A program made the translations under genes and the position numbers. The notes under the pieces are model-generated. The model made no database searches and was not told where the DNA came from. It was given only the letters and a program-made list of their open reading frames with translations. 64,000 nucleotides of DNA from positions 111,092,350-111,156,349 of the forward strand of contig CM060979.1 in assembly GCA_030765065.1 (NCBI GenBank). Reading direction: 5' to 3'. Positions 11,721-62,443 of the stretch are shown here, piece by piece. The stretch comes from Deroplatys truncata (taxonomy: Eukaryota > Arthropoda > Insecta > Mantodea > Mantidae). Positions within the stretch are counted from its first letter, which is position 1. Every line of letters begins with the position of its first letter.

Positions 11721-11950
11721 AATCTGATGTGTTACACTCCCATGACTTTCTCTGCTCTTGTACAAACTATTTTTACAAACTCTTATTCTCCATCTACTTC
11801 ATATTAGTCGAGATAAACATTTGCAGAAACGATCTTTTGACATGCAAAGAGAATTACATTTTACACATAGCGACCAGTTCTAAAAATCTTTGACTATAGC
11901 TTAAGGCGTACTATGTTCCCCTTGTTTTGTAATTGCAAGAGCAATATAGA
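11721..11950 (-). mobile_element. Element A terminal fragment
   Basis: Begins with the conserved terminus CTGATGTGTTACACTC and ACTTTCTCT, followed by 'tacaaactatttttacaaac' and the 'cttattctccat' block. It then switches near 11875 to a short plus-orientation piece ('tttgactatagcttaa'). It is a rearranged end fragment. Confidence 0.6.
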
Positions 11951-12029
11951 AATACAGTAGCCTTTAAGCATAGACATATCTCTTAATAGCTGGTTGTTAT
12001 GTGCAGCACCATTCTCTTTGCCACAGATT

Positions 12030-12428
12030 AATACTCTTTGCATATCTACATAGTAGATAGAGAAGGTATTGCATTCCACCCAAAAATTCGATACCGAGAT
12101 TTCACCGGAAATGTTTTCAGGCCCTTTGAATCCAAAAGGGACTTTTAGGAAAAGAGCCGTGCGTACGTGTGTGTGCGTGTGTGTGTGAAAAGCATAACTC
12201 AAAAACGAAAATTTGAGCTCGTAGGGTCCAGTTCTTAAGCATTTGACTATCGCTATCCCGTTTACCTATATAACTAAATGTATAATGCAGCTATTTCCAG
12301 AAAGTTTATTTCGATTAAAATGAAATATACAGGAAAATAAACTTTCATAAGAGTAATTTGTATACCCCCTAATAAGCTATAGAGGGTAGAGGAAGTCATG
12401 TGAATGTAAAGAATCAGATTTTTTTTTT
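12030..12428 (+). mobile_element. Element A, internally deleted copy
   Basis: Contains the left terminal segment ('attccacccaaaaattcgat', 'accgagatttcaccggaaat'), a short TG tract at 12160-12187, and the 'agcataactcaaaaacgaaa' block. It then jumps to the right-end module (ATTTGACTATCGC to GGTAGAGGAAGTCATGTGAATG and ATCAGATTTTTTTT). Most of the core is deleted. It is joined directly to the next copy at about 12429. Confidence 0.8.
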
Positions 12429-13202
12429 TACTTTCTCTACCATGTATCTAGTAGGTAGAAAAGGTATTACTTTCACCCAAAAATTCTATACCGAGATTTC
12501 ACTGGAAAGACATGTTTTGAGACCCCTGAATACAAAAAAAGCATTTTTAGAAAGGGTCCGCGTGTGTCTGTGTATCTGTAACGGCATAACTGAAAAACGA
12601 AAAGTCGGATCAACACCAAACTTGGTATTTAAATTCAGTACCTTCCAAAGATGCGACACGAAGATTTTCAAGAAAATCCCCCAACCACAAAATATCCTTT
12701 ACGTGGAACATTTTTAGAATTTTTTTATTTTCTAAAAAAAGTGACTAATACCATATAGGCATTAAAGATAATTAAGTGACAAATAATATATATCTTGAAT
12801 TTTCTGGGAATAGCCTTTGAAGCCCTCTTTATTCGGAAGAAATTTTCTAGAATGTTGTATAACTGGCAAACATTAAGCGATAGACGAAAATGTACTGCAC
12901 AAAAAATGTAGATCTCTTTAAAACACACTATTTATTTCAAATAACTTTTTTGGGATCCACCATTTCCGGGATATCCGTTAGGAAACAGTATGGACTTTTA
13001 AGGTCAGCATACAGCGTCCAGTTCTTAGACATTTGACTATCGCTGTTCCCTTTGTATCTGTAACGATATAGATATTCCTGCAAAATTTGGATTAAAATGA
13101 AGTAGATATAAAAAAAGTTTTAGTAAGACCAGTTTGGATACCCATTAATAAACGATAGCGGGTAGAGAAAGTCATGTGAATGTATCACATAAGATTTCTT
13201 CT
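12429..13202 (+). mobile_element. Element A, near full-length
   Basis: Starts TTTACTTTCTCTACC and ends GTAGAGAAAGTCATGTGAATG followed by CACATAAGATTT. The inverted ends ACTTTCTCTAC and GTAGAGAAAGT are present. Internal blocks follow the family order. The overlapping open frames here are not conserved in length between copies and are not treated as genes. Confidence 0.85.
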
Positions 13203-13969
13203 AATACGCGTTTCTATAAACAACGGAACCATTATATTTACATGTATTCCACAAAGCTTCTGTCCAGCAGATTATTTAAGGGGATAGTAAAATAAGCTGC
13301 GCAATTTTGTGGTTCTTTTGGTACGGTTCACAAGACTTTCTCTGTTCATCATTCATTTTAATAGTTGTTCTACTTATTAATGCAGAACTTGCCTTTGCAG
13401 CTATGTACTTCCTGTTAATCCCGATGAACGACCGCGAGATATCGTTTAATTACGAGTAATATCACGAAAATGCACACTATGTGGGCTGAGGAAGTTAGTT
13501 GTTTAAAACATTTGCACAAACGAGAGGTCGCAACCACATAATCTTTCGGGGTGTAGAGCATCCACTTAAAATTAAGGAAAAATGAAACTAACAACAGACA
13601 ATATTCGACAATGGTTAATATTGTAGACCAATTTAACAGATTCACTAGACTTTCCATACTTAGGCCATGGAGGCAGCGGGACGTGAGCATGCAAAAGTAA
13701 GGATTATAGCTTATAGGAGGACCAGGAAATTAAAAAAAGAAGAAGGTATTTCAAGTTTTTAACAGATTATAATTTTAATAACAAAAGACCCTTTACCTTA
13801 GATTCATATTTCGTTGTTTCACAGTAGAATCCTCGCCATGAGGCAGATGCTACGAGCACTTTACACTGAGCTCTTCACACTTCAAGCATTCAACATTACT
13901 CATCCCCACCCATACAATATCAAATAATATTTATTGAATATACGTGGTTATTTTAACAAGATTTGTGGT
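13203..13969. other. Unassigned DNA
   Basis: No domain or repeat recognised. A 91-codon minus-strand frame at 13690-13415 has hydrophobic stretches but no family resemblance that I can see. Confidence 0.4.
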
Positions 13970-14335
13970 TAAAGCTTTGCCTATTTCTTAATATTCCCAG
14001 TTATATACAGTTCAGCGAGTATGAAGAAGACTTCACAGTCTATTTACAGAAAATTCAAAATATTATTATCGCCTCAGTATCTTAGGGTTATCTATATTCT
14101 TACGAAAAGTATTTAGATTATATTTGAGACTTTTCCATGTACCGGGTTGCCTGGGAATGAGGGAACTCATGAAAATCTTCGTCTTGCAACCTTAAAACAA
14201 TGAAATTTGTATTTATTCCAACCTCGTTGCTCTACGCAGATAGGCATCTGCACCTTTCTAGATTTAGATTCAAGGAAGCTGTAAATGTAGAATTCCAGTG
14301 AGATCTCGATATCTAATTTGCGAACTTCTCTGTCG
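13970..14335 (-). mobile_element. Element A relic
   Basis: Diverged blocks in minus orientation: 'cacagtctatttacagaaaattca', 'ttttccatgtaccgggt', 'gaaaatcttcgtcttgca' and 'attccagtgagatctcgatatc'. Neither terminus is intact. Confidence 0.45.
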
Positions 14336-14436
14336 CAGACAAATGGTACAGGAAGTAAAAACCCCTATCAGAAATACCAAAGAATTTCAAATATACAGCT
14401 TAGTTGCTTGGTGCAAGTGAATATTCTTAGAACTGG

Positions 14437-15097: not shown

Positions 15098-15234
15098 TTT
15101 TACTTTCTCTACTACGTATAGTAAGTAGGGGAAGTATTGTATTCCACCCAAAAATTCGATACCGAGATACATGTTTTGAGACCCACTGAATCCAAAAAAA
15201 GCATTTTTGGAAACATGTCCGTGTGCATGTCTGT

Positions 15235-15291
<57 letters not shown>

Positions 15292-15977
15292 CAGCATAAC
15301 TTAGAAACGAACAGTCGGACAAACACCAAACTTGATATTTAGGTTCAGTATCTTCCAGAGATGCGACACGAAGGTTTTCAAGAAAATCCCCCCACCTCAG
15401 ATTACCCTTTACGTGGAACATTTTTCGAAATTTTAATTTTCTCAAAAATGGCTCCAACGATTTTGATTAAAATATCACAGGTTTAAGATATTTTCATGAC
15501 AAATGAAATATATATCTCGAATTTTCTGGGAATGTCCCCAAAAGTATTCTTCATTGTGAACGACTTTTGCATAACTGGTAAACCATAAGAGATAGACAAA
15601 ACTTTACAACACAAAAAATGTAGATCCCGTTAAAATACACAATTTATGGCATATACATTTTTTTGTTGAGTGAACCATTTTCGAGATATTGCTTGTTATT
15701 CCCTTAAATTTTCCAATAATTATTCTCAACTTCGTTATTCAGTTTTTTTGTCCTGGTAATGCAAAGAAAATGAAATACTCCACATAGCAACCAGCTCTTA
15801 AAATATTTGACTATAGCTTCAAGCCTATCAATTGCCCTTGCATCTACAAGAAAATTAGCAATAAGATTAACATCTCGATATCTCGATTAACATGAAGCAT
15901 ATGGAGAATAAGCGTTTGTAAAAATAGTTTGTACAAGAGTAGAGAAAGTCATGTGAGTGTAACACATCAGATTTTTT
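15098..15977 (+). mobile_element. Element A, full-length reference copy
   Basis: One of the cleanest copies. It has left end TTACTTTCTCTACTACGTA with a following complement (TAGTAAGTAGGGGAAGT) that allows a terminal stem-loop. Next come the TTCCACCCAAAAATTCGATA block, a long TG tract (15241-15289), the AACAGCATAACTTAGAAACG block, and a core containing GATTTTGATTAAAATATCA and TTTACAACACAAAAAATGTA. The right end is GTAGAGAAAGTCATGTGAGTG with ACACATCAGATTTTTTT. The only sizeable frames come from the TG tract and its neighbours and are not protein-like. Confidence 0.9.
15241..15289. repeat. (TG)n microsatellite inside Element A
   Basis: About 24 uninterrupted TG dinucleotides. Other copies carry CA, TG/CAGA or CGCGCG tracts at the same internal position, so the microsatellite is part of the element. 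Confidence 0.97.
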
Positions 15978-16200
15978 TGTCCTGGTAATGCAAAGAGAAT
16001 GGAATGCGCCACATAGCAACCAGCGCTTAAAATATTTGACTATCGCTTAAAACCTACCATATTCCCCTTGCATCTACAAGAAGATTAACAATAAGATTAA
16101 CATCTCGATTAACACGAAGCATATGGAGAATAAGCGTTTGTAAAAATAGTTTGTACAAGAGTAGAGAAAGTTATGTGAGTGTAATACATCAGATTTTTTT
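15978..16200 (+). mobile_element. Tandem duplicate of Element A right end
   Basis: Repeats the last 225 bp of the copy just upstream, from TGTCCTGGTAATGCAAAG to ACATCAGATTTTTTT, with few differences. It is joined without spacer and is a right-end-only module. Confidence 0.92.
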
Positions 16201-16545
16201 ATAGAATTAACAGCCAGGGAGCGTTGTTTTGCCTTTTTTCAACAAGTCTCTGCAACAGCTCATACGGCCAATATTTCGATGAGAAAAATTGAAAGTGCGT
16301 TTGAGGACAGAATTATTAGTAGAGATTTGTAGACCCCTTGGTCCCCCGACCTAACCCCCTGCGATTTCTATCTCTGGGGTAGCGTAAAACAAAGTGTACA
16401 AGACAAACCCACACACCCTGGAAGATTTAAAACAAAATGTCCTCCAGGAAATTTCTCAACGTGAACTACGGCGACTGAAGGATAGGTGCCAAAAATGTAT
16501 AGACAACGACGGTGGCCAGTTTCAACATGTCCTTTCATAAAGTTG
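16201..16545 (+). pseudogene. Tc1/mariner-type transposase C-terminal fragment
   Basis: With frameshifts, the plus strand reads a typical Tc1/mariner-superfamily C-terminal region: a piece containing ANISMRKIESAFEDRIIS, then SPDLTPCDFYLWG followed by VKQSV, a PHTLEDLKQN-like helix and KCIDNDGGQFQHV. In such enzymes this is the end of the DDE/D catalytic domain, and the Asp of PCDF is the usual third-acid region. Stops and frame changes occur and the N-terminal DNA-binding part is missing. It abuts an Element A end at 16200, which may mark an old insertion boundary. Confidence 0.8.
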
Positions 16546-17147
16546 GTAAGTAAAGCCTTTAAAAGTAGTTTTAAAAATGTTGTATGGTTTCATTCGCGCT
16601 TTTCTATGATAGCGGCAGACGGCAACGAGCGCCGAGGACACGAACAAGAAAAACACCACGCAGCCGGTTCGTAGTTCTTTTGGCTCTCTCTGTATAATGC
16701 TATACTTAAGCCAACGTTTCTGTTGCTGTTCGTCTCCACTACTCGAAATGTCAATAGTACGCGAGTAATGTTTTCCTAGATGAAGGTAAGCACTGATATA
16801 ATCACAAAATACTCTATGGAGTGATACCACTACTTTTTTCTGAAAGATTCTAAAATGATATAAGCTTCAATGTTGGTAATAGCTCAAAAACCGTCATTTC
16901 CCCCCCTGAAAAACTGTGACTGGCGGGTTTTCCATCATCAAAGGAAAAAGCATACTATGAAAGGTCTTTCAAATCCGTAGCAACTGCTATTGAAGCTTAA
17001 ATTTAAAATGCAAGCCAGAAACGTGGGGATGCAATGTTTCTTACAAATAACAAGCACCTAAAGCTTCAGTGGGGTACAGCAAATGTAGACGGTGTACCTG
17101 CATGTAGGTAAAATAATCTTCTTATGATAACAATACCTACAATAAAC

Positions 17148-17148: not shown

Positions 17149-17186
<38 letters not shown>
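17149..17186. repeat. (TAA)n microsatellite
   Basis: About 12 TAA trinucleotides followed by a short A run. Confidence 0.95.
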
Positions 17187-17193
<7 letters not shown>

Positions 17194-17227
17194 TATGACG
17201 CGTTCCACTTATGTGTATTCCATGACA

Positions 17228-18566
17228 ACTCTAAAAATATGGACATTAAAGAAAAAACGAGATACCTTCTCCACGAAAGTGACCGATAGTAACTGGAAAA
17301 CTTCGATATCAATTTTACCGAAAATACAGACCTTGGAGTCCCCTGAAACCCCTCCCTATACCAAAAAAAATCTGATGTGTTACACTCACATGACTTTCTC
17401 TACTCTTGTACAATCTAATTTTACAAACGCCTATTCTCCATATGCTTCATGTTAATCGAGATATCGAGATGTCAATCTTATTGCTAATTTTCTTGTAGAT
17501 GCAAGGGGAATATTAAGTATTGGAAAATTTAAGGAAATAACAAGCAATATCTCGAAAATGGTTCACTCAACAAAAGAAATGTATGACATAAATTGTGTAT
17601 TTTAACGCGATCTACATTTTTCGTGTAGTAAACTTTTGTCTATCTCTTATGGGTTACCAATTATGAAAAAGTCGTTCATAATGAAGAACACTTTTGGGGA
17701 CATTGCCAGAAAATACGAGATATACATTTTATTTGTCATGACAATATCTTAAACATATGATAGTTTAATCAAAATCGTTAGAGCCGTTTTTGAGAAAATT
17801 AAAATTTTCGAAAAATTTTCCATGTAAAGGGTAGTCTGGGGTGGGGGGATTTTCTTGAAAACCTTCGTGTCGCATCTCTGGAAGATACTGAACCAAAATA
17901 CCAAGTTTGATGTTTATCCCACTGTTCGTTTCTGAGTTATGCTGTTCACAGACACACAGACAGACACACAGACACACACACGGACATGTTTCCAAAAATG
18001 CTCTTTTTGGATTCAGGGGGTCTCAAAACATATATTTCCGGTGAAATCTCGGTATCGAATTTTTGGGTGGAATACAATACTTCCCCTACTTACTATACGT
18101 AGTAGGGAAAGAAAAATGAATAACGAATTTGAGAAGAAGTATAAGTATTGGAAAATTTAAGGAAATAACAAGCAATATCTCGAAAACGGTTCACTCAACA
18201 AAAAAAATGTATATGACATAAGTTGTGTATTTTAATGCCATCTACATTTTTTGTGTAGTAAAATTTTGTCTATCTCTTATGGTTTACCAGTTATGCAAAA
18301 GTCGTTCACAATGAAGAATACTTTTGGAGACATTCCCAGAAAATTCGAGATATACATTTCATTTCACATGACATTATCTTAAAAATATGATATTTTAATC
18401 AAAATCGTTAGAGCCATTTTTGAGAAAATTAAAATGTTCGAAAAATCTTCCATGTAAAGGGTAGTCTGGGATGGGGGGATTTTCTTGCATCTCTGGAAGA
18501 TACTGAACCTAAATACCAAGTTTGGTGTTTATCCGGCTGTTCGTTTTTGAGTTATTGCTGTTCACA

Positions 18567-18613
<47 letters not shown>

Positions 18614-20616
18614 ACACACACACAGACACACACACGGACATGTTTCCAAAAATACTTTTTTTGGATTCAGGAGGTCTCAAAACATGTATTTCCGGTGAAA
18701 TCTCGGTATCGAATTTTTGGGTGGAATGTAATACTTCCCCTACTTACTATACGTAGTAGAGAAAGTAAATATGGACATTAAAGAAAAAACGAGATACCTT
18801 CTCCACGAAAGTGACCGATAGTAACTGGAAAACTTCGATATCAATTTTACCGAAAATACAGACTTTGGAGTCCGCTGAAACCCCTCCCTATAAAAAAAAT
18901 CTGATGTATTACACTCACATGACTTTCTCTACTCTTATATATTCTATTTTTTCAAACGCTTATTCTCCATATGCCTCATGTTAATCGAGATAATAAGCTG
19001 TCAATCTTATTGCTAATTTTCTTGTAGATGCAAGGGAAATATGGTAGGTTTTAAGCGATAGTCAAATATTTTAACGCTGGTTGCTATGTGGCGCATTCCT
19101 TTCTCTTTGCATGTCCAGGACATAAAAAAAATCTGACGTGTTACACTCACATGACTTTCTCTACTCTTGTACAAACTATTTTTACAAACGTTTATTCTCC
19201 ATATGCTTCATGTTACTCAAGATATCGAGATGTCAATCTTATTGCTAATTTTCTTGTAGATGCAAGGGGAACATGGTAGGTTATAAGCGATAGTCAAATC
19301 TTTTAAGCGCTGGTTGCTATGTGGCGCATTCTATTCTGTCTGCATATCCAGGACATAAAAAAATTGAATAACGAATTTGAGAAAAAGTATAAGTATTGGA
19401 AAATTTAAGGGAATAACAAGCAATATCTCGAAAATGGTTCACTCAACTAAAAAAATGTATATGACATAAATTGTCTATTTTAACGCGATCTACATTTTTT
19501 GTGTAGTAAAATTTTGTCTATCTCTTATGGTTTACCAGTTTACCAAAAGTCGTTCACAATAAAGAATACTTTTGGAGACATTCCCAGGAAATTCAAGATA
19601 TGCATTTTATTTGTCATACAAATATCTTAAACATATGATATTTTAATCAAAATCGTTAGAGCCATTTTTGAGAAAATTAAAATTTTCGAAAAATCTTCCA
19701 TGTAAAGGGTACTCTGGGGTGAGGGGATTTTCTTTAAAACCTTCGTGTCGCATCCTTGGAAGATACTGAACCCAAATACCAAGTTTGGTGTTTATCCGAC
19801 TGTTGCTTTCTGAGTTATGCTGTTCACAGACACACACACAGACACACAGACACACACACGGACATGTTTCCAAAAAAGCTTTTTTTGGATTCAGGGGGTC
19901 TCAAAACATGTATTTCCGGTGAAATCTCGGTATCGAAATTTTGGGTGGAATAAAATACTTCCCCTACTTAGTAATACGTAGTAGAGAAAGTAAAAATGAA
20001 TAACGAATTTGAGAAAAAGTATAAGTATTGGAAAATTTAAGGAAATAACAAGCAATATCTCGAAAACGGTTCACTCAACAAAAGAAGTGTATATGACATA
20101 AATTGTGTATTTTAACGCGATCTACATTATTTGTGTAGTAAACTTTTGTCTATCTCTTATGGTTTACCAGTTATGCAAAAGTCGTTCACAATGAAGAATA
20201 CTTTTGGAGACATTCCCATAAAATTCGAGATATACATTTCAATTCTCATGACCTTATCTTAAACATATGATATTTTAATCAAAGTCGTTAGAGCCATTTT
20301 TGAGAAAATTAAAATTCTCCAAAAATGTTCCAAGTAAAGGGTAATCTGGGGTGGGAGGATTTTCTTGAAAACCTTCGTGTTGCATCTCTGGAAGATGCTA
20401 AACCTAAATAGCAAGTTTGGTGTTTATCCGACTGTTCGTTTCTGAGGTATGCTGTTCACAGGCACACATACACACACACGGACATGTTTCCAAAAATACT
20501 TTTTTTTGGATTCAGGAGGCTCAAAACATGTATTTCCTGTGAAATCTCGGTATCGAATTTTTGGGTGGAATGCAATACTTCCCCTTCTTACTATACGTAG
20601 TAGAGAAAGTAAAAAT
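17228..20616 (-). mobile_element. Element A tandem array of partial copies
   Basis: A 3.4 kb head-to-tail array in minus orientation. Units are 17364-18112 (near full), 18113-18768 (core and left end only), 18893-19126 and 19127-19362 (right-end modules only), 19363-19995 and 19996-20616 (core and left end). Core units begin at the same boundary, near TGAATAACGAATTTGAG, and end at the GTAGAGAAAGTAAA terminus. A non-Element A block of about 130 bp (from ATGGACATTAAAGAAAAAAC to CCCCTCCCTATA) precedes two of the units, at 17228-17363 and 18769-18892. This shows that a larger unit was itself duplicated. Confidence 0.9.
18568..18635. repeat. (CA)n/(CAGA) microsatellite inside Element A
   Basis: CA tract with periodic GA interruptions at the standard internal position of the repeat. 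The equivalent tracts in the neighbouring units (17950-17982, 19830-19860, 20459-20480) differ in length. Confidence 0.95.
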
Positions 20617-20757: not shown

Positions 20758-21048
20758 AAATTAAATTGAGTTTTATTTATGGACGCTCTTTAACTACTAT
20801 GGTCCTTAGCGTCCCATTCTATATGGGGGTGAAAAACCGGTAATTTTGCTCAGATGCCTCTTTATCAGGCTTGAGGTTCTTTTACGTGCCGTGAATCTGC
20901 GACACGGGACTACGGGCTTTACTTCCCTTCCGAAGGAAGCCATGCTAAAGATTTTTACGCCCGAAAAGAATTCATCGCCCTCCACCGGGTTTGAACCCGC
21001 GACCTTGGGAACTAGAGGCTAGCACGGTACCAGTAGTCCACGGAGGAC
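20758..21048 (-). mobile_element. SINE C copy 1 (tRNA-derived, with TSD)
   Basis: A 291 bp retroposon on the minus strand. Its 5' end carries box A (GTGGACTACTGGTACCG) and a canonical B box (GGGTTCAAACCC). The body includes CGTGTCGCAGATTCACGGC and GGACGCTAAGGACC, and the 3' end is CTCAATTTAATTT. A perfect 12 bp direct repeat borders it. It shares its whole body with the copy at 31775-32053. Mobilisation presumably depended on a LINE reverse transcriptase acting in trans. Confidence 0.92.
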
Positions 21049-21060
21049 ATTTGGTTTCTT

Positions 21061-24783: not shown

Positions 24784-24989
24784 GGTCAATTAATGAATTA
24801 ATTGTTCTTCCACACCGACATGCGTATAGGACAATGTTGGAAAGGTAAAATCAGAGGACTGAAAAATTCAATGGCATTGCCGGGATTTGACCACAGATCT
24901 TCCGGTTTCCATCCGGTTGCTCCAACAACTCAGCTACCATGGCAACATGCCGGTAGGACATTAAATTTTCCAGCTGACTCGCATTTCAG
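24784..24989 (-). mobile_element. SINE B unit 2
   Basis: Reverse-orientation copy with a tRNA-like head at 24874-24943. Its end sequence CATTAATTGACC adjoins the NUMT. It is followed immediately by plus-oriented SINE B sequence, giving an inverted junction near 24989. Confidence 0.85.
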
Positions 24990-25062: not shown

Positions 25063-25385
25063 CTGATAGAGGCTAAACTAATGAGGTCCGGGACTTAATG
25101 TACTAACAGCATTGTAAGTCGGCATTGGAGTATGTCATCTCAAAGCAATCAGAGATCTCTTTGTGGTTTACCGGGAAAAAATGCGTGTTAGCTGGAGAAT
25201 GCAATGTCCTAAAGGCATGTTGCCATGGTAGCTCAGTGGTTAAAGCAACCGGATGGAAATCGGAAGATCCCTGCTTCAAATCCCGACTATGGCATTGAAT
25301 TTTTCAGTCCTCTGATTCTACCTTTCCAACCCCGTACATGTCAGTGTGGAAGAGCAATTAATTCATTGAAACAGAGTAATAAAAA
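25063..25385 (+). mobile_element. SINE B unit 3 (best copy)
   Basis: Carries a 72-nt tRNA-like domain at 25222-25293. A seven-pair acceptor stem (GCCATGG with CTATGGC) can form, box A is TAGCTCAGTGGTTAAAGC, and the B box is degenerate (GCTTCAAATCC). It is preceded by the TGCGTGTTAGCTGGAGAATG block and followed by CAGTCCTCTGATTCTACC and CAGTGTGGAAGAGC. The tRNA-like domain lies in the middle of the shared unit rather than at its end, which is unusual for a simple SINE. Confidence 0.85.
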
Positions 25386-26544
25386 ATTGTTAAAAAAATC
25401 AGTGTCAGTCTGTTGTTCAGCCCCCGTAACTAAATTTCTATTGCTGTCTTATCAGGCATTGTTAAATAAAGGAAGGGGCAGTTTCTGAAACTCGTGAGAA
25501 GCCTTTTATTTTCGCCGAGAGTTGAAGAGGAGATTAAAAATGCTATCTTGCTAATGTTAAATCTGTTAAATTCAAGACCCATTATCTTAGAAACCATTCA
25601 AGATACCATTCAATATGCTGAAATATTTACAGGTTGTAGATGCATGCATTCTAAGTACGCTGATCTACTTTTTCCAATAATTTATTATTTTCCTAATTAT
25701 ACATCTTTCAATTCAAAATTGTCAGCAATTATTTTTTTAAAAAATAACCAACCATGTTATTAATACCAAAGTAGATACACAACAGCATTAGAGATTGTTT
25801 TTATCATCTAAAATTGAATTTAGCTATCTTCAATAGTTTTTGAGAAAACGGTTCATTTATATCACTGTTTGAAGCAAAAATGGAGAAATCAAACTCGCAT
25901 ATTTGCAAAGAAAGAAGCGACATACTTTTCAGATGACAGCTTCTACTATACAGTAGTGCCAATTTGTAGAGAAAACTTCCCTTAAAAGATGGGTTAATGC
26001 TTACCACTCTACTCCAAAGTGCGCATCACAGTACAAAATGGCAGATGCAGTACCACTTCAAAAATATATTTAAAATATTAATATTGTGCGTATAATTATA
26101 AAGTATATATCAAATTAAAGAGGAAATTTCAATTAATAAGACTGTAGAAAAAATCAACAACAACACATGCCATTTTTGGTCATTTCTGTTATTCAGTTCC
26201 CTACTTCCAATAACCCAATTTTAATGATTTCAAGTCTCCTCTTTTTGCCCCTTTGACCTGTTGGTATTTTTAACACACATACACACGAAGTTCTCCCTTT
26301 ATAGTAGGTAGGTGCTATATAGTATAGATTCCAATTCTGCCAATTGAAGGCTGTCTAAATCATAATGCTTTCAAATCAATTAATTTAAAAACATAAGCTC
26401 CCTTGATATTTGATCATTTGTCACGATAATGGGGCGTGATCTTCATGTTGCCGTGTGAGCTTTCCGATATCAGCACCGTAAAGCGGATCATAACGATTTT
26501 CTTTTTTTCCGTTGTACGATTGGAAAGTCCAACTTACAAAATAT
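25386..26544. other. Unassigned AT-rich DNA
   Basis: No recognised domain. A frame at 25494-25763 gives a hydrophobic peptide of no known family. Confidence 0.4.
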
Positions 26545-27392
26545 ATAAAATAATCTGATGTGTTACAATAACATGACTTTCTCTACCTCTATCGTTTATT
26601 AGTGGGTATACAGTTATTCTTACGAAAGCTTACGTTTCTATCTACTTCATTTTAACCTAGATAAACCTTTGCAGAAATAACTACATTACACGCTTCATTG
26701 TACATAGATACAAAGGCAATAGCTATAGGCAAATGTTTTAGAACTGGACGGTATATACTGGCCTTAAATTCCATGCTCTTTCCATGCACCCGCGAGAAAC
26801 AACTCAAAATCGAACAGGGCTTTAAAAGAATGACAAAGTATTGAACAATTCGAGCCACTCATAACGGATATCTCGAAGATATCTAAAGAGATCTACATTT
26901 TTTGTGTATGACAGTTTCGTCTATTGCTTAACGTTTACAGTTATGCAAGATTATACAAAATTCCTTCCTTCCTTCCTTCCTTCCTTCCGAATGAAGAGAA
27001 CTTTACAGGCTACTCCCAGAAAATTCAAGATATACATTTTATTGTCATGTAAATATCTTTAATATATGGTGTTTAATCATAGGATTTGAGAACCAAACAT
27101 TTCGAAAGGTGTTCCATGTAAAGGTTAATTGGGGTTGGAATTTTTTAAAAATCTTGGGTAGCATCTTTGGAAGATGCTGAACTTAAATACCAAGTTTGGT
27201 ATTTATCGGACTTTTCGTTTTTGAGTTATGCTGTTCACACACACCGCGCGCGCGAACCTTTTCTAAAAACGCTTTTTTGGATTCAGGTACTTCAAAACAT
27301 GTATTTCCTGTAAAATATCGAATTCAAATTTTTGGTGGAATAAAATACTTTTTCTACTTACTGTAAGTACGTAGTAAAGAAAACAAAAAGTC
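26545..27392 (-). mobile_element. Element A, full-length
   Basis: Begins AATCTGATGTGTTACAATAAC with ACTTTCTCTACC and ends GTACGTAGTAAAGAAAACAAAA, with all internal blocks in order. It contains a (TTCC)n expansion (26961-26988) inside the core and a CGCGCGCG tract at the usual microsatellite position (about 27245). Confidence 0.9.
26961..26988. repeat. (TTCC)n microsatellite
   Basis: Seven TTCC units expanded from the single AATTCCTTCCGAATGAAG found in other Element A copies (for example about 36062-36079). Confidence 0.95.
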
Positions 27393-31761: not shown

Positions 31762-31774
31762 GGGTGGAATACAA
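31762..31774. repeat. Target-site duplication, left copy of SINE C
   Basis: GGGTGGAATACAA, present once in other Element A copies but twice here (again at 32054-32066), flanks the SINE perfectly. Confidence 0.95.
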
Positions 31775-36480: not shown

Positions 36481-36545
36481 AATCTGATGTACACTCACAC
36501 GACTTTCTCTACCCATGATAAATTCATATAATATCCTTTATACTC
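36481..36545 (-). mobile_element. Element A terminal fragment
   Basis: TCTGATGTACACTCACACG and ACTTTCTCTACCC immediately follow the previous copy, but the rest of the element is missing. This is a second head-to-tail junction between copies. Confidence 0.65.
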
Positions 36546-45775: not shown

Positions 45776-48147
45776 GACGGATTGCTTGCACATGCTTATG
45801 CTGTTTCACACTTTCTAGGAGAATGATGACATTTTGAGAAGTGTTATTCCGTAGTACATAATTTGTCCAATTGCTTGCACATGCCTATGCTGCTTCACAC
45901 TTTCTTGGAAATGCTGACTTCTTACGAAGTATTATTCCATACTGCATGGATAATTTATCCAATTGCTTGCACATGCCTATGCTGCTTCACACTTTCTTGG
46001 AAATGCTGACTTCTTACGAAGTATTATTCCATACTGCATGGATAATTTATCCAATTGCTTGCACATGCCTATGCTGCTTCACACTTTCTTGGAAATGCTG
46101 ACTTCTTGAGAAGTATTATTCCATACTGCATGGATAATTTATCCAATTGCTTGCACATGCCTATGCTGCTTCACACTTTCTTGGAAATGCTGACTTCTTA
46201 CGAAGTATTATTCCATACTGCATGGATAATTTATCCAATTGCTTGCACATGCCTATGCTCCTTCACACTTTCTTGGAAATGCTGACTTCTTACGAAGTAT
46301 TATTCCATACTGCATGGATAATTTATCCAATTGCTTGCACATGCCTATGCTGCTTCACACTTTCTTGGAAATGCTGACTTCTTACGAAGTATTATTCCGT
46401 ACTGCATGGATAATTTATCCGATTGCTTGCACATGCCTATGCTCCTTCACACTTTCTTGGAAAATGCTGACTTCTTACGAAGTATTATTCCGTACTGCAT
46501 GGATAATTTATCCGATTGCTTGCACATGCCTATGCTGCTTCACACTTTCTTGGAAATGCTGACTTCTTACGAAGTATTATTCCATACTGCATGGATAATT
46601 TATCCAATTGCTTGCACATGCCTATGCTCCTTCACACTTTCTTGGAAATGCTGACTTCTTACGAAGTATTATTCCATACTGCATGGATAATTTATCCAAT
46701 TGCTTGCACATGCCTATGCTGCTTCACACTTTCTTGGAAATGCTGACTTCTTACGAAGTATTATTCCGTACTGCATGGATAATTTATCCGATTGCTTGCA
46801 CATGCCTATGCTCCTTCACACTTTCTTGGAAAATGCTGACTTCTTACGAAGTATTATTCCGTACTGCATGGATAATTTATCCGATTGCTTGCACATGCTT
46901 ATGCTGTTTCACACTTTCTTGGAAATGCTGACTTCTTACGAAGTATTATTCCATACTGCATGGATAATTTATCCGATTGCTTGCACATGCTTATGCTGTT
47001 TCACACTTTCTTGGAAATTGCTGACTTCTCACGAAGTATTATTCCGTACTGCATGGATAATTTATCCGATTGCTTGCACATGCTTATGCTGCTTCACACT
47101 TTGTTGGAGAATGCTGACTTCTTGAGAAGTATTATTCCGTACTGCATGGATAATTTGTCCGATTGCTTGCACATGCTTATGCTGCTTCACACTTTCTAGG
47201 AGAACGCTGCTTCTTGAGAAGTGTTATTCTGTAGTACATAGATGGTCCGATTGCTTGCATCACACTTTGTTGGAAAATGCTGACTTCTTGAGAAGTATTA
47301 TTCCGTAGTGCATAATTTGTCCGATTGCTTGCATATGCTTAGGCTGCTTCACACTTTCTTGGAGAATCCTGACTTCTTGAGAAGTGCTATTTCGCAGTAA
47401 TTTGCCCGATTGCTTGCAGATGGTTTCGCTGCTTAACACTTTCTTGGAGAATGCTGACTTCTTGAGAAGTATTATTCCGTTGTACCTAGTTTGTCCGATT
47501 GCTTGCGCATGCTTATGCGGCCTCACACTTTCTAGGAGAATGCTGACTTCTTGAGAAGTATTATTCCATAATTTGTCCGATTGCTTGCACATGCTTATAC
47601 GGCCTCGCACTTTCTTGGAGAATGCTGACTTCTTGAGAAGTATTATTCCATAATTTGTCCGATTGTTGCACATGCTTATACGGCCTCGCACTTTCTTGGA
47701 GAATGCTGACTTCTTGAGAAGTATTATTCCATAATTTGTCCGATTGCTTGCACATGCTTATACGGCCTCGCACTTTCTTGGAGAATGCTGACTTCTTGAG
47801 AAGTATTATTCCATAATTTGTCCGATTGCTTGCACATGCTTATACGGCCTCGCACTTTCTTGGAGAATGCTGACTTCTTGAGAAGTATTATTCCATAATT
47901 TGTCCGATTGTTGCACATGCTTATACGGCTTCGCACTTTCTTGGAGAATGCTGACTTCTTGAGAAGTGCTATTGCGTTGTAATTTGGCCGATTGCTTGCA
48001 CATGCTTATGCTGCTTCACACTTCCTAGGGGAATGCTGACTTCTTGGGAAGTGCTATTGCGTTGTAATTTGGCCGATTGCTTGCACATGCTTATGCTGCT
48101 TCACACTTCCTAGGGGAATGCTGACTTCTTGAGAAGTGCTATTCCGT
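45776..48147. repeat. Tandem satellite, about 27 monomers of 81-92 bp
   Basis: The landmark TTGCTTGCACATGC recurs about every 92 bp from 45871 to about 47160, then every 81-88 bp to 48074. Monomers contain TTCACACTTTCTTGGAAATG, then a 14 bp inverted repeat (ACTTCTTGAGAAGT, or ACTTCTTACGAAGT in the left half) and a TATTATTCC segment. In the left half a four-monomer block of 369 bp is repeated (46239 and 46608 copies nearly identical). In the right half dimers of about 163 bp repeat (47561 and 47724), and the last units are an 81 bp duplication (47949 and 48030). Open frames across the array follow the repeat and are not genes. The left flank is PIF/Harbinger and the right flank is Element A. 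Confidence 0.95.
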
Positions 48148-48265
48148 AGTATATAATTTGTACTCCACTCAAAAGTTGGTAACGAGATTTCACCGGAAAT
48201 ACACGCTAGAAGCACCCCCAAAAATGTGAGAAAAATTTCCGCGTGCGCATGTGTTTTTTTTTTCG
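48148..48265 (+). mobile_element. Element A left-end fragment beside the satellite
   Basis: GTACTCCACTCAAAAGTTGG, ACGAGATTTCACCGGAAATA and CACCCCCAAAAATGTGAG match the left-end module up to the TG tract (GTGCGCATGTG). The first ~40 bp of the terminus are missing at the satellite border. The rest of the element resumes at about 48775. Confidence 0.7.
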
Positions 48266-52125: not shown

Positions 52126-52223
52126 GTAATGTACCCATTAATACTGTTTTACTTCAGGGACATTCGCACGATTTTCTGTCCTTCGTTCTGATATTTAGGA
52201 GGCATTTTAATAAACAACCCTAC

Positions 52224-53034
52224 AAATCTGATGTGTTACATTCACATAACCTCTACCTTCTACGCTTATTAGTGGGTATACAAGTTATTCTTACGAAAAT
52301 TTATTTTCCTGTTTACTTCATTTTAATCAAGATAAACCTTTACGGAAATAGCTGCATTACACGTTTCGTGTAGATACAAAGGGAATAGCGACAGTCAAAT
52401 ATCTAAGAACTAGTTGCTATATGCTGGCCTTCAAATTCCATACTCTTTCCATGATATTGCGAGAAACAGCTGAAAATCGACAGGACTTCAAAAGAGTGAC
52501 AGTTATGAGCAATTCAAACCATTAATATTGCGTATCTCGGAAATGACTGATGCCACATAAAACGTTATTAGAATTAAATTATGTGTTTAAAAGAGATCTA
52601 AATTGTTTGTATAGTACGTTTTCATCTATCGCTTAACAGTTATGCAAGATTGCATAAATTTGCTTCCAAATGAAGAGGCTTCAGAAGCTATTAACAGAAA
52701 ATTCGACATATACTTTTTATTTGTAATATAAATATCCTTAATATGGGCAGTTTTAATTAAAATCGTTAATCGAAAAATGTTCCATGTAAAGGGTAATTTG
52801 GAGTGGGGAACTGTCTTGAAAATCTTAGTGTTTAGTATTTATCCGACATTTCGTTTTTGAGTTATGTTGCTCAAAGACACACGCGAGCGCGAGCGTGCGC
52901 ACACACAGGACCTTTTTCTAAATTTTTTTATTTAGGGGCCTCAAAACATGTATTTTCAGTGAAATCTCGATATCGAACTTTTGGAATGTAATACCTTCTC
53001 TACCTACTATTTACGTAGTAGAGAAAGTAAAAAT
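52224..53034 (-). mobile_element. Element A, full-length
   Basis: Starts AATCTGATGTGTTACATTC (the ACTTTCTCTAC block is damaged to AACCTCTACC). It ends with an especially clear terminal hairpin: ACCTTCTCTACCTAC, loop TATTT, ACGTAGTAGAGAAAGT. A short CGCGAGCGCGAGCG/CACAC tract lies at the microsatellite position. Confidence 0.9.
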
Positions 53035-53039
53035 CACAA

Positions 53040-55396: not shown

Positions 55397-56238
55397 TACT
55401 TTCTCTAATTCGTACATAGTAAGTAGTAGAGAAGGTATTGTATTCCAATAAAAATTCGATACCCAGATTTCACCGGAAATAATTGAATTCAAAAAAATAA
55501 TTTTTAACAAAAGGTCCTATGTGTGTGTGTGTCTGTGCACAGCATAATTCAAAACGAAAAGCCGAATAAATAAACTTGTTAGTTATTTAAGTTCAGTATC
55601 TTCCAAAGATGCGACACGGAGATTTTCAAGAAAATCCCTCCATCCCAAACTACCCTTTACATAGAAAATTTTTCGAAATGTTTTATTTTCTAAAAGATAG
55701 CACTAAATACTTTGATTAAAAGACCATATATTAGATATCACATGACAAATAAAATATATATCTTGGATTTTCTCAGAATAGCTTGTGAAGTCCTCTTCAT
55801 TCGGAAGGAATTTGTATAATCTTGTATTATTGGTAAACGTTAAGTAATAGACAAAAACGTATCTACTACACAAAAACGGCAGATCTCTTTAAAACACACA
55901 ATTTATTTCAAATAACTGTTTTGTGACATCAACCATTTCTGAGATATCCGTTATTAATGCTTCGATTTGTCAATACTTTGTCATTCTTTTTAAGTCCCGT
56001 TGATTTTCAATTGTTTCTCGCGATTGCATAGAAACACTGGAATTTTAAGGCTAGAGTACAGCGTCCAGTTCTTAAACATTTTACTCTGTTGTTCACATTG
56101 TTGGTATTTATAACGAAATGTGTAATGTAACTACTTCTAGAGTAGATAGAAAAATAAACTTTTGTAAGAATAGTTTGTATACCCACTAATAAACGAGAGG
56201 TAGTGAAAGTTATGTGATTGCAAAACATCAGATTTTTA
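55397..56238 (+). mobile_element. Element A, full-length
   Basis: Left end TACTTTCTCTAATTCGTACA with the complementary TAGTAGAGAAGGT giving a terminal stem-loop; TG tract at 55519-55532; right end AGGTAGTGAAAGTTATGTG and CATCAGATTTTTAG. Immediately followed by another copy in the same orientation. Confidence 0.9.
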
Positions 56239-57035
56239 GAAAAAGGCCCGTGTGCGCGCGCGCGTAAGTGTGAACAGCATAAGTCAAAAACGAAAAGTCG
56301 GATAAATACCAGATTTTGTATTTAAGTTCAGTATCTTTCAAAGATGCGACGCGAAGATTTTCAAGAAAATCCTCCATCCCTAACTACCTTTTGCATGGAA
56401 CATTTTTCGAATTTTTTTATTTCTGCAAAAATGGCTCTAACGATTTTGATTAAAATACCCTATATTAAAGATATTTACCTACATGAGCCCGAGAACGTCT
56501 AGAGCATATTCGTCGCCAGGAAAGCTTCAACTCTTATTTCAAAATGTATATGTTGAATTTTCTGGGAATGACCCCTGAAGTCCTTCATTTGGAAGCAATT
56601 TTGTATAGTCTTGCCTATAACTGGTAAACATTTCCCAACAAAAAATATAGATCTCTATAAAACACACAATTTATTTCAATTAACCTTTTTGTGGCACAAG
56701 CCATTTCCGAGATGTTTTATCAATGGTTGGAATTGTTCAATACTTTGTCTTTGTTTTAAAGTCGTGTAGATTTTCAGTTGTTTCTCGCGATGTCATGGAA
56801 AGAATGTGGAATTTTAAGGCCAGCATATAGCGTCCAGCTCTAAAACATTTGACTGTCGCTATTCCCTTTGTATCTATAAAGAAACATGTAATGCAGCTAT
56901 TTCTGCAAAGGTTAATCATCTCGATTAAAAGGAAGTAAGCAGAAAAGTAAGCTTTCGTAAACAAAGTTTGTATACCCACAAATGAACATGGAGGGTAGAG
57001 AAGGTTATGCGAATGTAGCACATACATTTTTTAAA
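56239..57035 (+). mobile_element. Element A, left-truncated
   Basis: Begins internally at AAAAAGGCCCGTGTGCGCGC (the microsatellite region, with CGCGCGCG) and runs to GGGTAGAGAAGGTTATGCG. The left terminal module is missing, and the junction falls exactly at the right end of the preceding copy. Confidence 0.88.
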
Positions 57036-58185
57036 AAAAAACAATTAATTCAAAAGTATATTTCCTTAAGCTTCTTTTGTAGCTCAATAGGAAACACAGT
57101 ATCTGAAGTTTTGCTAACAATTATGAAAATCGCATCGTAAGAGTTATTTTTTCACAAAATAACTTAAACTTGCGTTTTAAAATGCATGATCCAAGTCTGA
57201 CTTAATAAGCATGCACCATACTTGGCAACCATACCGCCATAAGTTGCGGTAAAAGCTCCGAAATCTCAGTAGAGTACTTCGGGTTTTGGAAAATGCACAG
57301 ATCGGTCCGCTTAACTATGTAGATTACCATAAGGACAATTTTGCCACGCTTCCACGTCACCTACTATGTTTCTGTTTAACGGTCTTTCCAAGTGTGTTTA
57401 TTCTTGATGGCCACACTGATGAATGAGAAATGGAGCGGAAAGGAATATCATTTTTATGCCCACGCTGAGCTACAAATGGTGAGGAAAGCTACGAGGGACC
57501 GAGATTATACAGGTCAACGAAACTCTCTCAGATCATTATAGTAAATAAAACATTATAGTAATGGTATTATCTATTATTTAGAGCTTTCTTTGATGAATTT
57601 AATATACTACGTTGATTTTCTGCAGATGAAAGCGGTACTAGCACTGCAAAACAACAATATCGGAAAATATATTTCCTACCCAATTTGAGGCAGCATTTTT
57701 AACACTTAAATGATTTCAGTCTAATTATATAGAAGACCACCGAAAAGTAAAGTTGGGGCGAAGGCCACCGGAGACTTTGTAGCATACGTGGGGCAGTTAC
57801 TTCATCAAGTTTGGCTCCCCAACAACGGAACTACAATACAACTTCTTTATCAATTTCTTATTCTAAATTATTCCTTTTTTGTTTCATTTGTATACAGCGA
57901 TTTAACTTCTGGTCTTGACTTGAGAAATAATCGTTAATTGTACGGTCAATCTTAAGTTTTTTATAATCTCTAATAATGAAACGCACACCCATTCACATGC
58001 ACACTTTCAGATTCTGCGACCTTTTCCAATAAAAAATTCTAATAATTTAGAATATTTAATTCAAATTCCAAGCCGTATATCTATAATCGTTATAACAACT
58101 TCCTGGATTGTCATAATATTAATTAACTTTTTAGAAAACCAAGTATTGAAAATTGAGAAAAAACTTCCCTTTTTGAATGTCTAGG
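57036..58185. other. Unassigned DNA
   Basis: 57190-57530 is less AT-rich. One frame gives VFILDGHT-like sequence near 57395, loosely like Jerky/pogo transposases, but too short and broken to assign. Confidence 0.35.
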
Positions 58186-59377: not shown

Positions 59378-60215
59378 TTACTTTCTCTACTACGTATATT
59401 AAGTAGGGGAAGTATTGCATTCCACCCAAAAATTCGATACCGAGATTTCACCGGAAAATACATGTTTTGAGACCCACTGAATCCAAAAAAGCATTTTTGG
59501 AAACATGTCCGTGTGTGTGTCTGTGAACAGCATAACTCAGAAACGAACAGTCGGATAAACACCAAACTTGGTATTTAGGTTCAGTATCTTCCAGAGATGC
59601 GACACGAAGGCTTTCAAGAAAATCCCCCCCACCCCAGACTACCCTTTACATGGAATATTTTTCGAAAATTTTAATTTGCTCAAAAATGGCTCTAACGATT
59701 TTGATTAAAATATCATATGTTTAAGATATTCTCATGAGAAATGAAATGTATATCTCGAATTTTCTGGGAATGTCTCCAAAAGTATTCTTCATTGTGAACG
59801 ACTTTTGCATAACTGGTAAACCATAAGAGATAGGCAAAATTTTACTACACAAAAAATGTAGATCGCGTTAAAATACACAATTTATGTCATATACAATTTT
59901 GTTGTTGAGTGAACCATTTTCGAGATATTGCTTGTTATTCCCTTAAATTTTCCAATACTTAACACTTTTCACAAATTCGTTATTCAATTTTTTTTGTCCT
60001 GGTAATGCAAAGAAAATGGAATACTCCACATAGCAACCAGCTCTTAAAATATTTGACTATCGCTTAAAGCCTACCAATTCCCCTTGCATCTACAAGAAAA
60101 TTAGCAATAAGATTAACATCTCGATTAACATGAAGCATGTGGAGAATAAGCGTTTGTAAAAATAGTTTGTACAAGAGTAGAGAAAGTCATGTGAGTGTAA
60201 CACATCAGATTTTTT
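59378..60215 (+). mobile_element. Element A, full-length, best-preserved copy
   Basis: Left end TACTTTCTCTACTACGTATA; AAGTAGGGGAAGTATTGCAT can pair back on it. It continues with ACCGAGATTTCACCGGAAAA, a very short TG tract (59512-59523), AACAGCATAACTCAGAAACG, AATGGCTCTAACGATTTTGA and GATAGGCAAAATTTTACTAC. The right end is GTAGAGAAAGTCATGTGAGTG with ACACATCAGATTTTTT. Very similar to 15098-15977 and to the reverse complement of the 17-20 kb array, indicating a young subfamily. Confidence 0.92.
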
Positions 60216-60217
60216 AT

Positions 60218-60340
60218 AAACAGATTCTCATTACATCCTCATTAGGAAGAACAGGGAATAATTCTGACAAAGAAAAATCCCTGCCCTCCAACCGGGAATC
60301 GAACACGGAACCTCGTAGTCTAATGCGTAGCGTATAAATT
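60218..60340 (-). mobile_element. tRNA-derived SINE E, copy 2
   Basis: Minus strand: ATTAGACTACGAGGTTCCGT followed by a B box GTGTTCGATTCCC and GGTTGGAGGGCAGGG. It begins immediately after an Element A right end. The box A part is incomplete. Confidence 0.55.
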
Positions 60341-60454
60341 ATAAATGTTCGATTTAAAATCTGAGTTGGATGGATAATGCCTTTTCCCAGAAATTTCCCT
60401 TAGAGAAAAGTACAATTGACTGCAAACGGGCAGGAGTAAATAAATACGTTGTTT

Positions 60455-61272
60455 TTACTTCCTCTACTGTTTACTTACTATAAGTAGAGTAAGTGTTGCA
60501 TTCCACCCAAAAATTCAATACCACGATCTTACCGGAAATTCACGTTTTAAGAATCCTTAATAAAAATTATAAAAGCGTGGTGTGTCTGTGAACAGCAGAA
60601 GTCAAAAATCAAAGTTAAATATTAAACTCAGCATTTACGTTGTGTCTTCCAATGATATGACCGAAATTTTCCAAGAAAATCCCATTCCAGATTATCCTTT
60701 GCATAGAACAATTTTCGAGAATTTTTATGTTCTCAAAAATATCAAATTTGATTAAAATATCATATGTTTAAGATATTTTCGTAGCAAATGAAATGTATAG
60801 TCCCCAAAAGTCCTCTTCATTCTGAATGACTTTTACATAGGTATTGGTAAACCGTAAGAGATAGATAACTTTTTACTACACAAAAAATTTAGGTACTTCT
60901 TGTTAAAACACAATTTGTGCCGTAAACATTTTTTTGTCGAGTGACCCATTTCCGAGTTATTCCTTGATATTTGTTTGAATTTTCCAATACTTATATTTTT
61001 TCTCAAATGGGAATTCGTTATTATGAGTGTGTATGTTTTTTTTTAAATCACTGGACATGTAAAGAGAATGAAATGTTCCACATAGCAACCAGCTCTTAAA
61101 ATATTTTACTATCGCTTAAAGCCCACCATATTCCCGTTGCACCTACAAGAAAATTAGTCATTCTGCAAATGTTTATCTTGATAACATGAAGCAGATGGAG
61201 AATAAGGCGTTTGTAAAAATAGTTTGTACAAGAGTAGAGAAAGTCATGTGTGAGCAACACATCAGAATTTTT
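60455..61272 (+). mobile_element. Element A, full-length
   Basis: Left end TTACTTCCTCTACTG, right end GTAGAGAAAGTCATGTGTGAG with ACACATCAGAATTTT. The TG tract is reduced to GTGGTGTGTCTGTG. Internal blocks are complete. Confidence 0.9.
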
Positions 61273-62443
61273 GCTTGCCAAATGAAATGTATGTAGATAT
61301 ATCTTGAATTTTCTGGAAATAGCTTGCGATGTAAATGTATAATTGGTCTAATTGGTAAACTGTAAGAGATAACAAAATTTTACTACCTACATAAAAAAGT
61401 AGATCTCGTTAAAGCACAGGTTTTATGTCAATAATATATACACGCACACGAGGCATGTTTTTTAAAATAAGTACTGTTTTAATATGTTGCCGGTGCAGCG
61501 CTGCAGTCGCGATTTTGGACATGTGCGATCGTCACGTTGTGTTTTCCTTTTGCTAAAGCGTTTCGAAATGTTCAACTTATTCGAACGACTCGCTGACTGT
61601 GAAGTCAGATCAGTGATTCGTTCTTTGAATGCGAGAAATGTTACGCCACCAAACATTCATCGCCAATTGTGTGAGGTTTATGGGGTAAACAATAACGAGT
61701 GACAATGCCCGGCCACACGCAGCCAAACAAACTCAAGATCTAATCGCATTATTTGGTTGGGAACAGTTCGACCACCCATCTTACAATCCGGATTTGGCAC
61801 CAAGCGATTTTCATTTGAAGAAATTCCTTGGTGGAAAACATTTAAACGACGATGTTGAGAAACAAGAAGTGCAGACTTGGTTTTCATCACAGGCGGCATC
61901 ATTCTTTGACGATGGCACACAACAACTGGTTTCCTTACAAGTGCTTGAATAACAGCGGTGACTATGTGGAGAAGCAGGTAGTGTAAGGTAATGAATGATA
62001 ATATAAACGCATTTGGAAAATCATGTTCTGTTATTTATAAAAAAAAATCGGTACTACTTTGAAAACACGCCTGGTATAAATATAAATGAATAAATATATA
62101 GGCATATATATTTATATGAAGTATAAATTATGATTTCTAAGACATTTCTTGCTATTTGTTTGAATTTTGAAATGCTCCTACTTTTCTCAAACGGAAAATC
62201 GATATTTTTTTCTCCTGGTAATTCAAATAGCATTTTGGAATTTCATGGTCATTACCTAGCGACACTCTCTTTAAAAATTTGACTATCTCTTTATCTGTTG
62301 TATACTGAAACAAAATGTGTAAATGTGAATGGAAAGTTTATCTTGTTAACAAAAGTAGCTAAAATAGCAAGCTTTTGTAAGAATAGTTTGTAGAAGAATG
62401 AGTATAGAAATCCATGTGAAAGCAGCACATAATACTTTTTTTT
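61273..62443 (+). mobile_element. Element A, left-truncated and split by mariner
   Basis: Core piece 61273-61448 (AAATGAAATGTATGTAGATA, TAAACTGTAAGAGATAACAA, GTAGATCTCGTTAAAGCAC), then the mariner insertion. Core and right end continue at 62075-62443 (TTTCTTGCTATTTGTTTGAA, CTCCTGGTAATTCAAATAG, AGCTTTTGTAAGAATAGTTTG, GAGTATAGAAATCCATGTG). Confidence 0.75.
61449..62074 (+). mobile_element. Internally deleted mariner with terminal inverted repeats
   Basis: The ends AGGCATGTTTTTTAAAATAA (left) and, on the minus strand, AGGCGTGTTTTCAAAGTAGT (right) are imperfect inverted repeats of about 30 bp. Inside, 61569-61702 encodes a helix-turn-helix N-terminus (MFNLFERLADCEVRSVIRSL, then NVTPPNIHRQLCEVYG). 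The sequence then jumps at about 61702 to the C-terminal catalytic part: DNARPHAAKQTQDLIALFGW, HPSYNPDLAPSDFHL, KKFLGGKHLNDDVE, SQAASFFDDG. The family resembles the mariner transposase domesticated in SETMAR. The first catalytic Asp region is deleted, so it is non-autonomous. Confidence 0.85.

Follow-up and report, generated by a model that had tools for sequence, protein, structure and literature searches.

Non-autonomous Helentrons and a likely autonomous partner in the genome of the mantis Deroplatys truncata

Introduction

Non-autonomous Helentrons, or Helentron-associated elements (HINEs), have been described from mite, Culex, and Drosophila genomes (Thomas et al. 2014, PMC4067079). They have subterminal inverted repeats (subTIRs), a palindrome near the 3' end, a T-rich target, a variable number of terminal Ts, and no target duplication, and they outnumber partners that have matching ends and encode Rep, helicase, and endonuclease domains. 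Here we describe a repeat family with these features, its 3' palindrome being only a candidate one, in the mantis Deroplatys truncata, as seen in a 64,000-nucleotide stretch of its genome (C5:111092350-111156349, which we will call the window; the whole assembly has 4,289,915,091 bases in 818 contigs). There are 37 matches to insect odorant receptors, compared to none in 14 control genomes, as expected of an insect host. A full copy has a left block (L), a core, and a right module (R). The family differs from the HINEs of Thomas et al. in its sequence and in its share of the genome; also, its right module is just 72% like its partner's final 100 bp, and each of five partner copies has at least two L-core units.

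DINE-1 of Drosophila (PMC2374699) is similar in having a 5' subTIR beside a partial inverted copy, a microsatellite in the left block, a 3' stem-loop (in the mantis, a candidate palindrome) after the 3' subTIR, and insertion at TT. But its subTIR is a 13-bp sequence beginning with ATACCC instead of the 11-bp ACTTTCTCTAC, and its 3' stem has 7–11 bp instead of 5 bp. Cg_HINE (pearl) of oysters (PMC7492417) shares an 11- to 12-bp subTIR with a complementary inverted repeat, a microsatellite that closes the left flank, and, putatively, a 3' palindrome. Cg_HINE has arrays of central repeats, whereas in the mantis copies that we saw, the ~225-bp right module is single or double; and no partner whose ends match was found for the oyster element (in the excerpts of that paper), while the mantis has one. 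In Fusarium, FoHeli (PMC5148889) combines several 5' termini with one 3' terminus, which was attributed to insertion of the element into itself and then read-out that starts at the outer 5' end. We see the same arrangement in an insect instead of a fungus, with host copies visible around the inserted partner. (All of our statements about published elements draw on excerpts of the cited papers.)

We propose, with a probability of about 95%, that the mantis repeats are HINEs and that a ~10.4-kb Helentron of the same genome mobilizes them in trans. The argument rests on the structure of the copies, their insertion into T runs without any other duplication, a partner with matching ends, and the copy number. 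A preliminary description of this DNA had already suggested a Helentron-associated family of the HINE/DINE-1 type, and the empty sites and the Rep/helicase partner support that suggestion. This kind of element is already known, but we did not find this family in the literature that we searched: a search that included the text of the end sequences returned only titles that appear unrelated, and the family was compared to published papers alone. The interest lies in the scale, in a partner with clean empty sites, and in the self-nesting; a single assembly shows the dependants, a partner with an open frame, and the empty sites together.

Results

Structure of the repeats

We searched both strands of the window with the L, core, and R modules of one young copy at 59380–60215 (+ strand; 830 bp without its T runs), which was the reference for our searches. 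This identified 15 left pieces, 22 right pieces, and 26 core pieces (not counting two self-inverted core matches), on both strands and from 3.2 to 62.4 kb. Family DNA covers 16,101 of the 64,000 bases, and the reversed-query control covers 0. The shared architecture that had been reported for these repeats is thus borne out. Copies do lie within the reported span of 11721–62443, but relics lie beyond it as well (matches begin at 3.2 kb). A pattern search of the + strand text, with at most one mismatch, confirmed the reported positions of the end motifs, with 17 matches to ACTTTCTCTAC and 19 to GTAGAGAAAGT; under the same threshold, only 2 matches to the 21-mer CATGTGAGTGTAACACATCAG were found on the + strand. 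A 33-base right-end motif (up to 8 substitutions) was found at 15 places and the left hairpin motif at 20, some of which are the palindrome read from the other strand; neither motif was found in the reversed sequence.

In a young copy, a T run is followed by the 5' subTIR ACTTTCTCTAC (11 bp), ~11–17 bases, a complementary arm, and the left block. The arm is GTAGGGGAAGT in young copies and is nearer to GTAGAGAAAGT in some old ones. Next come a TG/CA microsatellite, which is present in the left part of HINE copies, a ~460-bp core that ends with GTTATTCA, and a T run. The ~225-bp right module starts with GTCCTGG and leads to the 3' subTIR GTAGAGAAAGT, CATGTGAGTGTAACACATCAGA, and a final T run. 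Between the 3' subTIR and the terminal T run are a 5-bp palindrome and then CATCAGA. So the succession of left blocks, microsatellite, core, right end, and T run was described correctly, as seen in full units. The left terminal stem-loop holds up too: folded as single-stranded DNA, the left hairpin was better than shuffled sequences in four copies (z = −3.2, −2.8, −2.2, and −2.0). A consensus built from 61 right ends contains the 5-bp palindrome; these ends had been chosen for their likeness to it. As for coding capacity, which had been reported as not visible, a Pfam scan of 11 of the window's 23 open reading frames of at least 110 amino acids gave no match.

The copies fall into age classes: a cluster at ~5%, a cluster at ~13%, and single relics. 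When 57 long core copies were compared, the first cluster had 34 members, with a median Kimura two-parameter distance of 0.052 to their own consensus (six are at 0.148–0.208). The second had 14, with a median of 0.133, and 9 copies were single.

Insertion into T runs

HINEs insert in T runs with no duplication other than Ts. We found 30 pairs of left and right ends and removed 3 by hand as mispaired. In the remaining 27, the two bases to the left of ACTTTC were always T, and the first base to the right of CATCAGA was T in 26. Flank words of 4–10 bases were shared no more often in these 27 pairs than in shuffled pairs.

The clearest empty site is in a satellite. On C1, a tandem repeat of ~3.41 kb has the HINE right end at 26 or more places between 20,512 and 119,382 (loci L001–L008). 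Two of the eight fetched units were searched with the modules, and each had one L-core-R copy. On C13 and C7, at 66–173 kb from the contig starts, the same repeat has a spacing of ~2.55 kb and no HINE. Of 981 candidate places, 40 were scored, and all 40 match the joined flanks of the C1 copy over the full 239 bases. The empty site is CATATTTTTAAAG and the filled site is CATATTTTT-834 bp-TTTTTAAAG (three units read): T5 if empty and T5-element-T5 if filled, and the 834-bp unit is there or missing as a single block. Because this HINE lies within the ~3.41-kb repeat, here a satellite is multiplying a transposon copy.

Two other sites agree. Site L016 compared to window positions 57640–57780 has T5 plus T5 against T5, with a diverged outer left flank but a clean match on the right and near the junction. 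At L026, where one HINE lies in another, the empty site has T5 or fewer and the filled site has T5 and T8. The preliminary description had proposed such comparisons as a check, and at the satellite, L016, and L026, only extra Ts differ. A mariner-like site (L025) is more diverged and has no non-T duplication; the mariner-like relic at about 61440–62090 of the window, which splits a HINE, was used as an empty-site paralogue. An apparent loss of ~8 bases at the mariner-like site was dropped, as five of six further copies are shorter there than the longest.

A probable autonomous partner

The preliminary description had also proposed looking for a Rep/helicase relative with the same ends. We found one in the same genome. 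A profile search with PF14214 (Helitron_like_N) gave at least 152 genome matches, a lower bound because 150 of 291 candidates were scored, and gave no matches in 14 control genomes. Among the matches listed, 30 have a stop-free match within an open frame of at least 1,000 amino acids, and 18 of these frames have at least 2,000. (The better-scoring matches, which head the list, seem to belong to a different lineage whose copies are mostly broken.)

One partner copy, at C9:66062627-66073038 (~10.4 kb), starts with TTTTTT-ACTTTCTCTACTACG, ends with GTAGAGAAAGTTATGTGAATGTAACACATCAGA-TTTTTTT, and has an open frame of 2,324 amino acids for a Rep/PIF1-helicase/endonuclease protein. Its two L-core units are 94.8 and 95.5% identical to the window copy in the left block and 94.4 and 93.5% in the core, and its 3' end, from subTIR to palindrome, matches the HINE at 31 of 33 bases. 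The protein matches DUF6570 (residues 716–843), Helitron_like_N (959–1150, E = 1.2e-27), and PIF1 (1614–1836, E = 1.9e-28), and the helicase part matches Helraiser (7lcc_A, 1.4e-22). The Rep histidines are within RGSPHEHMF, with a serine between G and P; a serine in the GSP before these histidines is a mark of Helentrons (Thomas et al., PMC4067079). At the C-terminus, residues 2070–2324 in isolation match Exo_endo_phos_2 with E = 2.1e-6 (28.1 bits versus a cut-off of 27.4). Near the N-terminus, residues 67–212 (of the frame at L037:2129-9100) resemble the N-terminal family of herpesvirus tegument proteins (Herpes_teg_N; E = 1e-9 with the N-terminal part as the query). In Helentrons that have been published, OTU cysteine proteases are present (PMC4067079).

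Both ends were read in five partner copies (the C9 copy and four more), and all five share one left module and one 3' end; the four have a 3' stretch of 386–622 bp that is 99.3–100% identical. Furthermore, a 53-base pattern specific to the partner's 3' end is found at 30 places in the genome (control, 0), and each of the 30 has a Rep match on its own strand at a distance of 4.7–6.3 kb (lists compared by hand). In each of the five copies whose left regions were fetched, there are at least two L-core units. Ten comparisons between copies gave 97.7–99.8% identity for the first units, while the C9 copy's own two units are 93.6% alike. This structure fits an old nested insertion that would have been followed by read-out from the outer 5' end, as in the model for Fusarium (PMC5148889).

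Abundance in the genome

The exact 21-base right end of the HINE, GTAGAGAAAGTCATGTGAGTG, is present 176,064 times (87,736 + 88,328), and its sequence read backwards is absent. To estimate the family's share we masked two samples: 20 stretches of 10 kb, placed randomly on C1 and C5, and 8 stretches of 5 kb at hand-typed positions on seven other contigs. Family bases were 37,203 of 200,000 and 7,171 of 40,000, respectively, and the reversed-query control had none. This is 18.5% of the sampled DNA (bootstrap, 13.8–23.3%). But the sample contains 18 exact 21-mers instead of the 9.85 predicted by the genome count, so it may be enriched, and the scaled-down share is about 10%. The family perhaps makes up 10–19% of the 4.3-Gb genome. 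The number of right ends is about 0.37–0.41 million if scaled from the genome count and 0.48–0.93 million from the sample. Three exact end patterns had no matches in viral and prokaryotic collections.

A share of this size bears on genome gigantism: one family here may reach 10–19% of the genome, and all Helitrons together are reported to make up 17–22% of the ~4-Gb assemblies of morabine grasshoppers (PMC7754599). With 176,064 exact right ends, the family is also large enough for measurements of target preference, of nesting, and of how tandem arrays arise.

Probable nesting in the family's own T runs

Copies had been reported to join often, head to tail, exactly at their ends. The joins are real but are a minority. 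In the window and the 28 sampled loci, 46 left ends include 3 joins of a core end to L and 2 of an R end to L, and 61 right ends include 6 R-R and 3 R-L joins. (Some of the 46 left ends are mirror reads, and the patterns miss some diverged joins.) These joins are consistent with nested insertion in which T runs of the family itself are the targets, and nested self-insertion has been published for Helitrons of the fungus Fusarium (PMC5148889).

Family DNA has 12.1 runs of at least five Ts or As per kb, compared to 5.8 elsewhere. With about twice as many such runs, resident copies would be expected to receive many insertions, and many of the joins probably arose this way. A HINE within a HINE was seen at 10 of the 42 left ends and at 15 of the 46 right ends, and 29–34% of T runs lie in family DNA. 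Since family DNA is richer in T/A runs, targeting of T runs alone predicts about this rate. We considered that HINEs might prefer HINEs, but rejected this, as the rate is not above the T-run expectation.

For the partner, we examined 13 copies that were chosen for their long open frames and not for their flanks, which were judged partly by eye. Nine of the 13 lie in or against family DNA: four directly adjoin a HINE core end on their upstream side and an R module on their downstream side; two have R downstream and a left end that was not reached; one has the right end of a HINE on one side and the left block of a HINE on the other; one is inside the T run of an inverted HINE; and one has an inverted HINE downstream and in the fetched upstream stretch. 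Three others have non-family flanks on both sides (C9 by search; C1 and C10 by eye), and one has a non-family right flank and a left end that was not reached. For the C13 partner at 112 Mb, the upstream core end was predicted before the sequence was fetched and was then found. Assuming that family DNA holds 35% of T runs, the excess has P of about 0.013, which is suggestive only.

Discussion

Proposed mechanism and points against it

We propose that the partner protein, with its HUH Rep domain, PIF1 helicase, and C-terminal endonuclease (a weak match), recognizes the ends that HINEs and the partner have in common. It would then replicate one strand by rolling circle and insert the copied strand at T runs. 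Many of the head-to-tail joins would result when the T run lies within a resident copy. A broader picture is more tentative, and we would put it a little short of an even bet: one Helentron family, with at least 30 partners versus some hundred thousand dependants, may have built 10–19% of the genome while feeding on itself. The T-rich dependants would be preferred landing sites, and this would give nested L-core/R arrays, new composite 5' ends of partners, and one satellite that multiplies a HINE.

Several observations weigh against the proposed mechanism. The right module of the HINE has only 72% likeness to the partner's final 100 bp, so simple deletion of partner sequence does not explain the young HINEs; by sequence comparison, a young HINE looks like a chimera of the partner's left end and the right end of another subfamily. 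Also, the partner's second L-core unit is without the last ~28 bases of the HINE core. The endonuclease match is weak: Exo_endo_phos_2 was not listed when the whole protein was scanned at E = 0.001, and a PDB search with the C-terminal 255 residues found no endonuclease. The 3' palindrome folds no better than shuffled sequences (four folds, z from −0.2 to −1.0) and has no covariation (260 of 305 pairs versus 257.0 with shuffled partners; 222 of 2,000 shuffles were at least as high). No rolling circles were observed. A target duplication of TTTTT is indistinguishable from Ts that the element carries. Finally, two 126-bp direct repeats that flank a HINE composite (17235–17362 and 18767–18892) are 98.4% identical, but the HINE modules around them are only 90–95% alike, and the higher identity of the repeats does not fit.

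Alternative explanations

The preliminary description named a miniature inverted-repeat transposable element (MITE) as the alternative, that is, an element with short terminal inverted repeats, a DDE transposase, and a target-site duplication. ACTTTCTCTAC and GTAGAGAAAGT do resemble a pair of inverted repeats. But the right repeat is internal, with the palindrome, CATCAGA, and a T run after it; only Ts are duplicated, both in the 27 flank pairs and in the empty sites; and the partner with the same ends encodes a Rep/helicase. So we consider a MITE to be extremely improbable. Nearly as hard to credit is the idea that the left, core, and right blocks are separate repeats, unrelated to one another, that happen to be neighbours. 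Their unequal numbers (L-core-L-core-R-R, L-core-R-R, or R alone, each bounded by T runs) might suggest this, and the preliminary description had noted that empty sites could reveal separate blocks. The opposite was seen, as the satellite site gains or lacks the 834-bp unit as a single piece, and there are 30 left-to-right units (27 after mispaired ones were removed) with their ends in T runs.

We also considered that the family might be one of canonical Helitrons, which have a 5' TC, a 3' CTRR, and insertion between A and T. Although the partner encodes a Rep/PIF1 helicase protein whose helicase part matches Helraiser, this seems very unlikely given the C-terminal endonuclease match (weak), the GSP before the HUH histidines, the subTIRs, and the ACTTTC and CATCAGA ends in T runs. 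A closer contender, which we think unlikely but plausible enough to keep in mind, is that the head-to-tail joins came from rolling-circle concatemers instead of nested insertion. Inner members of tandem Helitron copies are often 3'-truncated, according to the oyster HINE paper (PMC7492417), and the joins of a core end to L in the window resemble such copies. However, the four partners (of 13) with an upstream core end all have R downstream, while the three with non-family flanks have neither, and one of the four core ends was predicted before it was fetched. Furthermore, the R sequences downstream of partners differ between hosts (by eye), and the rates of HINEs within HINEs (10/42 and 15/46) are near the 29–34% of T runs that lie in family DNA. 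We therefore prefer nested insertion.

Other features of the window

Besides the reference copy, the + strand has an internally deleted HINE, with a left block and right end but no core, at 12050–12425 (found by the module search). Right after its T run, joined head to tail, an L-core-R copy of the old subfamily begins (12430–13200). The young copy at 15102–16200 is L-core-R-R, with two tandem right modules of 222–230 bp. Another old-subfamily copy (55398–56240) is joined to a 5'-truncated HINE (56241–57040). A more diverged copy is at 60457–61272, and 61267–62445 has a piece of HINE core and an R module that are split by a mariner-like insert (by eye).

On the − strand, a young L-core copy with a truncated R (17364–18112) is followed by an L-core module without R, joined to the next module at a T run (18118–18766). 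The region 18893–20610 is a composite, L-core-L-core-R-R, in which one HINE was probably nested in the T run between another's core and R. A possible relic 3' end at 17184–17234 is weak, with 3 of 1,000 shuffles scoring as high. The 126-bp repeats nearby are weakly similar to the HINE left block. Old-subfamily copies on this strand are at 26540–27389 (L-core-R), 35615–36490, and 52218–53033, the last with a near-perfect left hairpin; the right end of another copy joins the second of these at 36484–36502. The strand also has a HINE at 31024–31774 whose 5' end was lost against a sequence similar to a short interspersed element (SINE; by eye), a right-module relic at 36478–36596, and an L-core-R copy at 36804–37607. 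Three right-module relics, on the −, +, and − strands, are at 11716–12021 (module search).

Sequences at 16220–16560 and about 61440–62090 are presumably mariner-like relics; we recognized them by eye from their motifs, and there was no profile match. Two tRNA-like Rfam matches are at 24872–24943 and 25222–25294, where ARAGORN found no tRNA gene, and a repeat at 20758–21048 resembles a tRNA-derived SINE by eye. In sampled locus L024, open frames at 3341–5845 and 6221–8383, in opposite orientation, have reverse transcriptase and GIY-YIG domains, and we take them to be Penelope-like. In the window, 45780–48148 is a satellite array of ~92-bp units with higher-order periods.

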